Below, in pieces: positions 31,202-35,726 of a DNA stretch of 64,000 nt (position 1 is the stretch's first letter; each line of letters begins with the position of its first letter). Under the pieces are notes generated by a model. That model was not told the DNA's origin and did no database searches. It worked only from the letters and a program-made list of their open reading frames with translations. Position numbers and translations under genes: made by a program. Source of the stretch: Prochlorococcus marinus XMU1405 (GTDB lineage Bacteria > Cyanobacteriota > Cyanobacteriia > PCC-6307 > Cyanobiaceae); assembly GCF_017696275.1 (NCBI RefSeq), contig NZ_JAAORF010000002.1, positions 1 through 64,000 of the forward strand, given 5' to 3'.

Positions 31202-32392
31202 ATGAGTTTTAAAAAAAATATAAACGATATTAAGAAAAATTATTCCCTAGGAATAATTGGAGGTGGTCAACTGGCATTGATGTTAACCGAGGCAGCAAAA
31301 AAAAGAGATTTAGAAGTATGTGTGCAAACAAAATCTTGTGATGATCCTGCTGGTTCAAAAGCAGATCATGTCATAGAAGCTGATCCTTTAAAGATAAGAG
31401 GTAATAAATCATTAATTAATGAGTGTGAAAAAATAATTTTTGAAAATGAATGGATAAAAATCGATAAATTAAATTTAATTGGTAATAACGATATTTTTGT
31501 TCCAAGCCTTAATGCAATTAAGCCATTAGTAGATAGGTTTTCTCAAAAAAAATTAATCGATAGAATGAATATTCCCTGTCCAAAATGGATAAGTATTGAA
31601 GATTTTAAAAATCTCTCGGATGAGGAAATCAAAAATTGGACTTTTCCTCTAATGGCAAAATCAAATAAAGGTGGATATGACGGTAAAGGGAACAAAAAAA
31701 TAAAGACAAGAGAAGATTTAGATTCTTTTTTAACAGAGAATAATTCTGATGAATGGTTAATAGAAGAATGGATAGAGTATGAAAAAGAACTGGCTCTTGT
31801 TGGTTCCAGAGATAGGACCGGTAAGATAAGATTCTTTCCAATAGTTGAGACATTTCAATTAAACCACGTTTGTGATTGGGTTCTTGCACCTGGAATAAAT
31901 GAATATGATTTGAACTTATTTGCAATAAATATATTCTCTTCAATAGTCAATGAACTTAATTACGTTGGAGTTTTAGCTATTGAATTCTTCTATGGAGATA
32001 ATGGTCTTTTAATTAATGAAATAGCTCCTAGAACACATAACTCAGCTCATTTCTCTATTGAAGCTTGCACTTCAAGTCAGTTTGATCAATATGTTTGCAT
32101 TTCTTCTGGGATAATGCCACCTGACATCAAAATGATCTGTGAAGGGGCAATTATGATAAATCTACTGGGATTAAGAAAGAATTTCTCAATCTCAATGGAA
32201 ACCAGAATTAAAATGTTATCTGAAATTGAAGGTTCTAATATTCATTGTTATGGCAAATCTCGTGAAATTCTGGGAAGAAAAATGGCTCACATCACATTTT
32301 TATTAAATGGTAAAACGCATTCAGAAAGATATGATGAGGCTCAAGTTTTATTAACTATGGTAAGAGACATTTGGCCATCTCCAAATGCTTAA
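31202..32392 (+). CDS. purK: N5-carboxyaminoimidazole ribonucleotide synthase
   Basis: This ATP-grasp enzyme carboxylates AIR in purine synthesis. The 396-residue protein has SLGIIGGGQLALMLTEAAKK, FENEW, FPLMAKSNKGGYDGKGN, the LIEEWIEYEKELALV strand, INEIAPRTHNSAHFSIEA and the C-terminal domain. The 6S RNA gene lies directly downstream, as in other cyanobacteria. Confidence 0.95.
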   Translation: MSFKKNINDIKKNYSLGIIGGGQLALMLTEAAKKRDLEVCVQTKSCDDPAGSKADHVIEADPLKIRGNKSLINECEKIIFENEWIKIDKLNLIGNNDIFVPSLNAIKPLVDRFSQKKLIDRMNIPCPKWISIEDFKNLSDEEIKNWTFPLMAKSNKGGYDGKGNKKIKTREDLDSFLTENNSDEWLIEEWIEYEKELALVGSRDRTGKIRFFPIVETFQLNHVCDWVLAPGINEYDLNLFAINIFSSIVNELNYVGVLAIEFFYGDNGLLINEIAPRTHNSAHFSIEACTSSQFDQYVCISSGIMPPDIKMICEGAIMINLLGLRKNFSISMETRIKMLSEIEGSNIHCYGKSREILGRKMAHITFLLNGKTHSERYDEAQVLLTMVRDIWPSPNA

Positions 32393-32399
32393 AAAAATA

Positions 32400-32600
32400 A
32401 GTTAGAGTTAGGTTACTGGATCTTTGGTTAAGTTCTTCTTTATGTGCTCTGATCTGACTCTCTTTCGACATGAGGAGACTGTCGTGATGCGGTAGTAAAC
32501 CGATCTTGTAATCGGAAACGAAAGCCCACTTTGAATCCTCTTCTGGCATTTCCAGGTCGATGCAGCAGAGAACTGACGGGGATCCGGTGTTACCTATCAA
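32400..32600 (+). ncRNA. ssrS: 6S RNA
   Basis: A roughly 200-base, clearly GC-richer non-coding stretch follows purK, the conserved location of cyanobacterial 6S RNA (ssaA). The ends pair imperfectly as TAGGT (32409-13) with ACCTA (32592-96), and TGGATC with GATCCG. Internal hairpins include CGACA/TGTCG and CCGAT/ATCGG (32500-32515). 6S RNA mimics an open promoter and binds RNA polymerase. Exact ends are estimates. Confidence 0.85.
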
Positions 32601-32700: not shown

Positions 32701-32730
32701 TTGACGATCCATTTCTAATGCATTTATATT
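32701..32730 (+). promoter_or_regulatory. Sigma70-type promoter of the first DUF1651-like locus
   Basis: TTGACG at 32701-06 and TATATT at 32725-30 are separated by 18 bases. The same boxes precede the paralogous locus at 35.2 kb. The two share an 11-base block around the -35 and a 19-base block covering the -10 and start region. Confidence 0.7.
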
Positions 32731-32755
32731 AATAGTACATATGTATTACTAGGAA

Positions 32756-33055
32756 ATGACTTTAGGAGGAGCTAATGTTTGGACTAATTTTTCTTACGGT
32801 TATCGTAATGAGTCCCCAAGTGGTTGGTTGCTTAGCCCAGACCGTAGCAGATTAATTTTATTTACGAGGAACAAAAAATCTCCAAGAAATAGTATGAGAA
32901 TTTTTGCTCATACTTATTATGCAAATGATCTTGGTGAGCCAATGGCAATTAAATCATCAACTCAAATGTATTTGGATAATGCTTGGGATAAATGGCATGA
33001 CCTTCAATTAGAAGGTTGGACTTTTGAAGAACTTGAATTACCTGAATCAGTATGA
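32756..33055 (+). CDS. DUF1651-like protein, copy 1
   Basis: A 99-residue frame holds the pattern GWLLSPDRSRLILFTRN, a TYYANDLGEPMAI block and AWDKWHDLQLEGW. This fits my memory of DUF1651, a family largely restricted to marine picocyanobacteria, function unknown. It is paralogous to the gene at 35200. The first 20 or so residues overlap a +1-frame ORF that has the better ribosome site, so the true start of this frame is uncertain. It overlaps the next small gene by four bases (ATGA). Confidence 0.75.
   Translation: MTLGGANVWTNFSYGYRNESPSGWLLSPDRSRLILFTRNKKSPRNSMRIFAHTYYANDLGEPMAIKSSTQMYLDNAWDKWHDLQLEGWTFEELELPESV
32775..32855 (+). CDS. Overlapping 26-residue lipobox-like peptide ORF, copy 1
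   Basis: This frame lies +1 to the DUF1651-like frame. Its ATG follows GGAGG by five bases, a better site than that of the longer frame. It encodes MFGLIFLTVIVMSPQVVGCL plus six residues, a hydrophobic stretch ending in VVGC, which fits a lipobox. The paralogous locus has an ORF of the same length and position with LAGC. Between copies this frame is more conserved than the DUF1651-like frame over the same bases. Whether it is a leader peptide, a lipoprotein signal joined by frameshifting, or coincidence is open. Confidence 0.5.
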   Translation: MFGLIFLTVIVMSPQVVGCLAQTVAD

Positions 33056-35147: not shown

Positions 35148-35176
35148 TTGACGTCTGCGAGTAGTACATTTATATT
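35148..35176 (+). promoter_or_regulatory. Sigma70-type promoter of the second DUF1651-like locus
   Basis: TTGACG (35148-53) and TATATT (35171-76) are separated by 17 bases. The -10 and following bases are identical to those at 32721-32739, so the regulatory DNA was duplicated together with the gene or has been conserved since. Confidence 0.7.
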
Positions 35177-35199
35177 AATAGTACAACTGTATTATATAC

Positions 35200-35490
35200 A
35201 TGACCTCAGGAGTCGCTAATGTTCGGACTTATTTTTATCGTGGCAGTCTTATTGACCCCCCAACTGGCTGGTTGTTTAACAAAAAAAGTGGTTTATTAAT
35301 TTTTTTTGAGAGTTATAAGAAATCTGTATCTAATAACTTACAAGTATATACTCATCTTTTCTATGCAAATGAATTAGGTGAACCAGCCCAAATTAAAAAT
35401 TCAAGACTTCATTCTATTGAGTGTGCTTGCGAAACATGGAATGAATTAATTTCAGGAGGTTGGCAAATTGTTACTAATAAATTCCAGTAA
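35200..35490 (+). CDS. DUF1651-like protein, copy 2
   Basis: The 96-residue frame aligns with the gene at 32756: GWLFNKKSGLLIFFESY, THLFYANELGEPAQIKNS and CETWNELISGGW. Family and caveats are as for copy 1. A +1-frame ORF with the better ribosome site overlaps its first third. It is followed after two bases by a zinc-ribbon-like gene, a different partner from that of copy 1. Confidence 0.75.
   Translation: MTSGVANVRTYFYRGSLIDPPTGWLFNKKSGLLIFFESYKKSVSNNLQVYTHLFYANELGEPAQIKNSRLHSIECACETWNELISGGWQIVTNKFQ
35219..35299 (+). CDS. Overlapping 26-residue lipobox-like peptide ORF, copy 2
   Basis: The ATG follows GGAG by six bases. The peptide starts MFGLIFIVAVLLTPQLAGCL and has the same length and relative position (19 bases after the DUF1651-like ATG) as the ORF at 32775. 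LAGC is a standard lipobox. Twelve of 26 residues are identical between copies and most others are conservative hydrophobic changes. Confidence 0.5.
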   Translation: MFGLIFIVAVLLTPQLAGCLTKKVVY

Positions 35491-35492
35491 TC

Positions 35493-35726
35493 ATGATCAA
35501 GGTAAATCCTTCAAAATGGGAATATCTAAAAGAATCTACCCTAAAACGAAAACGAACAAAGATTTGTATTACTTGCAATCACTTTCGCTACAGCACTACA
35601 GAAACTTTTGCTACTATCTTGATCTGTCCAAAATACGAAAAACGTATACCACAGGGTGATCATTTACTTAAAGGTTGTGAGTATTGGCAAAAAAATAGGA
35701 CGATATTTTCTCCTGAAGCATCTTAA
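35493..35726 (+). CDS. 77-residue zinc-ribbon-like protein
   Basis: It is a basic protein with a CITC pair (about residues 25-28) and later cysteines in ICPKYEKR and KGCEYW. The CxxC-(about 17)-C-(about 17)-C spacing suggests a structural metal site. It follows copy 2 of the DUF1651-like gene by two bases. No family name can be given. Confidence 0.6.
   Translation: MIKVNPSKWEYLKESTLKRKRTKICITCNHFRYSTTETFATILICPKYEKRIPQGDHLLKGCEYWQKNRTIFSPEAS

Follow-up and report, generated by a model that had tools for sequence, protein, structure and literature searches.

Very short membrane peptides under SOS control are known from Escherichia coli, and two of them, TisB and DinQ, appear to be the closest functional parallels to the locus described here, judging by its LexA-type control and the hydrophobicity of its predicted product. 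TisB, the toxin of the SOS type I system TisB/IstR-1, is a very short LexA-controlled membrane peptide, and our locus resembles it in these terms and in that an antisense RNA has been reported at its MED4 counterpart (PMC2518516). The likeness is one of description: unlike TisB, the peptide here occupies a second frame within a conserved protein gene, the MED4 antisense RNA is co-induced with its mRNA, and both antisense repression and toxicity are at this locus only putative. DinQ, of the E. coli pair DinQ/AgrB, is an SOS-regulated peptide with a single membrane span and an antisense RNA (PMC3567139); it is not described there as nested in a protein gene, whereas the peptide here lies overprinted on a DUF1651 gene. 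For the overprinting itself, bacterial precedents exist in which a working gene has gained a new open reading frame (ORF) in a different frame (e.g., PMC4683798); the overprint here is distinct in that two to three types of paralogue carry it throughout a genus, and the frame under selection appears to differ between paralogues. The host frame is a member of the DUF1651 family (PF07864), and LexA-type boxes also stand before DUF1651 genes of other genera. In the open literature on DUF1651 and its MED4 genes, Prochlorococcus LexA, cyanobacterial SOS peptides, small or overlapping Prochlorococcus frames, phage-induced host genes, start-site maps, and mitomycin data, we know of no paper that names the peptide.

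Reading frames and control signals

The window (the whole 64,000-nt stretch of Prochlorococcus marinus XMU1405 that was analysed) holds a DUF1651 gene whose first third is covered by a 26-aa ORF in the +1 frame (MFGLIFLTVIVMSPQVVGCLAQTVAD), and a paralogous pair 2.4 kb downstream. The features of the two copies are as follows.

32410–32594, + strand: 6S RNA (ssaA/yfr7), upstream of copy 1 (Rfam RF00013, 90.6 bits)
32701–32730, + strand: TTGACG-N18-TATATT, a promoter-like site ahead of copy 1 (the consensus across 63 ungapped rows of this copy, at least 70% in most of these columns)
32734–32747, + strand: LexA-type box of copy 1, AGTACATATGTATT, over the expected transcription start
32756–33055, + strand: DUF1651 copy 1, the host frame, 99 aa, domain from residue 23 (Pfam PF07864, 41.4 bits)
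32764–32769, + strand: Shine-Dalgarno AGGAGG of the copy-1 peptide, within the first DUF1651 codons and five bases 5′ of the peptide ATG
32775–32855, + strand: putative peptide gene, copy 1, 26 aa, hydrophobic, overlapping the DUF1651 5′ end
35148–35176, + strand: TTGACG-N17-TATATT, a promoter-like site ahead of copy 2 (the consensus across the 55 loci of this copy, at least 90% in most columns)
35163–35176, + strand: second LexA-like box of copy 2, with one mismatch
35180–35193, + strand: LexA-type box of copy 2, AGTACAACTGTATT, likewise over the expected transcription start
35200–35490, + strand: DUF1651 copy 2, the host frame, 96 aa (Pfam PF07864, 51.5 bits)
35208–35212, + strand: Shine-Dalgarno AGGAG of the copy-2 peptide
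35219–35299, + strand: putative peptide gene, copy 2, 26 aa, overlapping the host frame, with the clearest peptide-frame selection

Both host proteins score above the PF07864 gathering cut-off of 22. The short ORF of copy 1 and its ribosome site are as a preliminary description of the locus had given them, as is the want of a well-spaced Shine-Dalgarno before the DUF1651 ATG, 19 bases upstream of the peptide ATG; the 12 identical residues out of 26 that it counted between the two peptides likewise stand, at 46% identity. The order purK–6S–DUF1651 is anchored by the 6S RNA, which is preceded by a purK-like ORF (31202–32392) named from its own sequence and from the published purK–6S order. Two further elements lie close by: an inverted repeat within DUF1651 copy 1 (32891–32914), terminator-like on the minus strand, and a Cys-rich 77-aa protein 3′ of DUF1651 copy 2 (35493–35726) that has no Pfam match above cut-off. 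Look-alikes of this protein are found behind a LexA-type box (L167) and, in a MED4-like genome, near PMM0684 (L236:1377–1607).

Promoter-like sites on either strand of the region number 9, against 15.3 in shuffles, and are thus not above chance, so that the case for a promoter is one of conservation. For the LexA-type box, both conservation and rarity speak. We read 129 loci, comprising copy 1 (63), copy 2 (55), a third type (10), and one row outside these types in which both frames are broken (L130). The pattern RGTACRNNTGTAYT is present in 119 of the 129 (59/63 in copy 1 and 49/55 in copy 2), starting 38 to 42 bases 5′ of the peptide start, and is absent from 12,900 shuffled upstream regions. 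A GGAG stands no more than 14 bases before the peptide start in 128/129 loci, and the DUF1651 ATG 19 bases upstream is kept in 126/129.

The XMU1405 genome contains seven strict AGTACANNTGTAYT sites and none of the reversed pattern: one at recA, three at DUF1651 genes (both copies and a gene at C3:58465, which is without the peptide ORF), and three at small-ORF loci. The recA site has the very sequence published for the recA box of AS9601, and GGTACAAATGTATT, known from the literature as the lexA box of MED4, occurs at C3:205735, just upstream of lexA. A related pattern allowing one mismatch is much less specific (29 sites versus 14 reversed). In other genera, a LexA-type box lies within 200 bases of at least 9 of 30 DUF1651 loci (e.g., L137, L140, L152, and L154), with none in the reversed control, which suggests that DUF1651 may widely be an SOS family in picocyanobacteria. 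The remaining strict boxes precede small uncharacterised ORFs (L162, L163, and L167, at G000:C1:30215, C1:327163, and C3:359920). A box near 30.2 to 30.4 kb is found in at least six of seven other one- or two-contig genomes (G015, G022, G041, G050, G193, G215, and G339), and the locus behind it is likely, from this recurrence, a core SOS gene.

Distribution of the peptide frame

The peptide was found in 49 of the 61 Prochlorococcus-genus genomes searched (XMU1405 included), mostly with the downstream paralogue, and in 20 of the 21 that are at least 90% complete. A search of 38 genomes outside the genus returned one weak match (E 2.17). In a draw of 300 genomes of the family, the peptide was present in 23 of the 24 listed genus members; among other genera, ten genomes gave matches, only at E 0.15 to 0.88, and five of these sit in frames with an internal stop, while 247 genomes beyond those listed had no match. 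The peptide thus does not convincingly occur, on sequence matches, outside one Prochlorococcus genus. The 80 relatives found in named genomes carry titles of Prochlorococcus or uncultured Synechococcaceae. Beyond the 129 loci, the 80 best of 181 additional copy-1 loci, which come partly from the same genomes, have the peptide intact in 77, the box present in 79, and the Shine-Dalgarno in 80.

Whether other DUF1651 loci lack the ORF had been set down in the preliminary description as a point on which its proposal could fail. Literally they do, since the other four DUF1651 genes of XMU1405 are without the peptide frame and the peptide search gave nothing convincing in other genera, yet within one sub-clade of the family the frame has come close to fixation. 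In four genus members with no peptide match (G023, G275, G049, and G057), none of 14 DUF1651 matches (two of them, L332 and L333, poorly placed) has an FGL(I/V/F)F motif in the 120 bases that precede the domain. These genomes, where assembly gaps are possible, thus appear to lack the peptide along with its host gene. Annotated phages yielded one weak match (E 0.8), to the DUF1651 copy-2 protein, and viral contigs yielded one locus with a copy-1-like gene (L319), itself only putatively viral. Neither peptide has a match in Pfam, NCBIfam, or PHROGs, and the copy-2 peptide has none in PADLOC.

The same set of loci bears on two readings that the preliminary description had raised for the short frame. 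The first is that it encodes a short lipopeptide, processed at the lipobox-like PQVVGC. The motif is present in this genome, but the residue on which processing would depend is not conserved: of 128 classified loci, 107 have Cys at position 19, against 19 with Tyr and 2 with Phe, and the residue is no Cys in either peptide of a MED4-like genome (G015). Its identity tracks the overlapping DUF1651 Leu codon (TTG/CTG giving Cys, TTA/CTA/ATA giving Tyr, and CTT giving Phe) and is therefore a by-product of codon choice in the host frame, which leaves the lipopeptide scarcely credible. The second treats the short frame as the real N-terminal part of the DUF1651 protein, connected to the rest by frameshifting (here a −1 shift). 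A slippery A_AAA_AAA does occur in the copy-2 peptide frame (35281–35287), with such a heptamer in 39/55 copy-2 loci, but a check for slippery sites found no conservation across the three types: 16/55 copy-2 loci, all 63 copy-1 loci, and all 10 third-type loci are without an X_XXY_YYZ heptamer. Slippage at the copy-2 heptamer would moreover skip the GW motif, and the two ATGs are each kept in their own right, so we regard frameshifting as very improbable. The run of A at 35281–35287 may slip by chance even if unprogrammed.

Selection on the two frames

Changes were counted by parsimony on FastTree trees built from these loci themselves. Expectations were drawn from DUF-synonymous changes downstream of the overlap, and the counts covered three differing choices of range, with one additional tree-free check. 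Two loci in which the DUF1651 frame is broken (L080 and L106) were left out, giving n = 62 for copy 1 and n = 54 for copy 2; the 10 loci of the third type entered only the signal conservation, the tree-free site test, and the lipobox and heptamer counts. In L106 (G045) and L122 (G012), the peptide ORF is intact and the DUF1651 frame broken.

In copy 2, the overlap ahead of the domain shows 35, 16, and 7 changes at DUF codon positions 1, 2, and 3, compared with 70, 56, and 122 downstream (position 1 versus 3, Fisher p = 2.9e-8; this and the other p values from change counts treat parsimony changes as independent, on trees that include the overlap). DUF-synonymous changes number 7 where 36.2 are expected, and of 51 DUF-nonsynonymous changes, 15 alter the peptide versus an expectation of 56% (p = 9e-5), the other 36 being silent in it. 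The peptide ORF is intact in 54/54 loci, versus a mean of 39.7 in 200 simulations with selection on the DUF frame only, none of which reached 54. Since DUF position 1 changes faster in the overlap than downstream (2.5 versus 1.1 changes per site), plain nucleotide-level constraint does not explain the pattern. These substitution counts show purifying selection on the peptide in copy 2, and we take this copy to be a peptide gene whose host protein is drifting at its N-terminus. That selection favours only the DUF1651 frame, the preliminary description's own counter-case, is thereby refuted for copy 2; for copy 1 it is not firmly so.

A structural model of the copy-2 host protein gives a β4-α fold in which residues 1 to 15 have pLDDT below 50, on a shallow alignment. 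The predicted disorder of the DUF1651 N-terminus, where the peptide frame lies, would be in line with a dispensable extension, and other members of the family begin nearer the domain in alignment A2, where the start is by choice the last in-frame ATG. The top eight VIA-align ranks for this model (m78b7c9136374) are PARP1/PARP2 entries (WGR region, Z 5.8 to 5.1), and Foldseek returned nothing below E 0.15, with Pur-alpha and PC4 among its rows; DNA binding by DUF1651, as the PARP WGR likeness of the model might hint, is a weak lead, too weak to use.

Nineteen bases into the DUF1651 gene comes the peptide start, with the stronger Shine-Dalgarno of the two, so the two starts should compete, and translation of the short frame could in principle set DUF1651 output, through start competition or ribosome stalling, with no role for the peptide in trans. 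We consider such a regulatory leader, which the preliminary description had also raised, unlikely. Most of the copy-2 peptide is under amino-acid selection; simple competition would not call for that, only sequence-specific stalling would, and the peptide start comes after the DUF1651 start and not before it.

The picture for copy 1 is different in that the DUF1651 frame is clearly constrained. Across peptide codons 2 to 12, there are 4 DUF-synonymous changes against 20.7 expected (p = 1e-5); these codons fall in the lowest stretch of the gene and are more suppressed than any 11-codon window outside the overlap. The conditional test on DUF-nonsynonymous changes gives no sign of peptide selection, with 6/10 altering the peptide before the domain and 29/37 over the whole overlap, both against 68% expected, and the C-terminal half of the peptide is unconstrained (38 synonymous changes versus 26.8). 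As many ORFs as observed stay intact in 9/200 DUF-only simulations (1/200 under a laxer setting). The peptide is broken in 3/63 loci (an early stop in L069, a truncation in L080, and a lost start in L085), and its ATG is ACG in 3/80 of the further loci. The tree-free site test is the weaker one: copy 2 has p = 0.015 in it, copy 1 has p = 0.29, and the third type has p = 0.25, the last two not significant.

Openness of the frame is by itself weak evidence: when copy 1 is recoded synonymously 20,000 times, 14,925 of the recodings still leave it open. Hydrophobicity is a different matter: over residues 1 to 12, the Kyte-Doolittle values of the two copies are 2.77 and 3.14, and no open recoding is as hydrophobic, neither among the 14,925 of copy 1 nor among the 2,850 that 20,000 recodings of copy 2 left open.

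One could hold that in copy 1 only DUF1651 is functional and the short frame is a passenger of codon constraint, of an antisense RNA, or of some other nucleic-acid signal, the peptide gene being real only in copy 2. The strong constraint on the host frame, the negative conditional test, the free C-terminal half, the broken loci, and the published antisense RNA to the MED4 locus all fit this, but it sits poorly with the DUF-synonymous suppression in codons 2 to 12 and with a hydrophobicity unmatched among recodings; we take the possibility seriously and think it doubtful. Our preferred reading of copy 1 is that the N-terminal half of the peptide is probably under purifying selection in a stretch where the DUF frame is constrained too, i.e., a probable case of dual coding. 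The proposal that the +1 frame encodes something selected therefore stands strongly for copy 2, whereas its support in copy 1 is indirect and limited to the N-terminal half. Likewise, the contrast between a conservatively changing peptide and a freely changing DUF1651 N-terminus holds mainly through copy 2, where DUF1651 drifts while the peptide stays put; copy 1 has the stronger constraint on its DUF frame.

Proposed expression and the MED4 counterparts

In the MED4-like genome G015, the 6S RNA lies at 652620–652804 and a Cyano-1 RNA at 654509–654576. The published coordinates in MED4 are 652625–652844 for yfr7, between purK and PMM0684, and 654511–654604 for yfr3 (PMC1242208). By position, this agreement identifies the peptide-bearing DUF1651 gene after the 6S RNA (of the third type, L131) as PMM0684. 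Less directly, by interpolation of gene numbers, we infer PMM0819 to be a peptide-bearing gene at about 774.7 kb, which lies closest among six DUF1651 genes. Both counterparts in G015 carry LexA-type boxes. PMM0684 and PMM0819 are reported to rise during phage infection (PMC5490813), and an antisense RNA to PMM0684, asMED4_07401, is reported to be induced together with its mRNA and is argued by the authors to be protective (PMC2518516). The passages of the two papers cited here neither mention the peptide nor give damage data for these genes, and the word LexA is absent from both papers.

On the available genomes, we judge it fairly likely that a 26-aa hydrophobic peptide, overprinted in the +1 frame on a sub-clade of DUF1651 genes, is translated from the LexA-controlled DUF1651 mRNA. 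From the promoter geometry, the shared mRNA would start within the LexA-type operator, and DNA damage or phage attack should then switch it on. Ribosomes starting at the first ATG, which has no Shine-Dalgarno, would make DUF1651, and those starting at the second, behind AGGAGG, would make the peptide. In the weakest step of this scheme, the peptide would insert in the membrane and slow or otherwise modulate the damaged cell, as TisB and DinQ do. A fuller account is possible, and we offer it tentatively: an SOS- and phage-induced membrane peptide of the TisB/DinQ type, with its own antisense RNA, would have arisen de novo by overprinting on an SOS gene, and after duplication the paralogues would have split the load, one keeping both frames and the other keeping the peptide while the host N-terminus drifts.

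Prochlorococcus is the most abundant photosynthetic bacterium of the ocean and dominates ocean photosynthesis. To our knowledge, the response of its small genome to DNA damage and phage is poorly known, and we know of no function for the DUF1651 genes that phage induce in MED4. A second product at these loci would alter the reading of phage-induction data. If our interpretation is true, the locus would also represent a rare instance of bacterial dual-frame coding, with selection falling on one frame in one paralogue and on the other frame in its partner.
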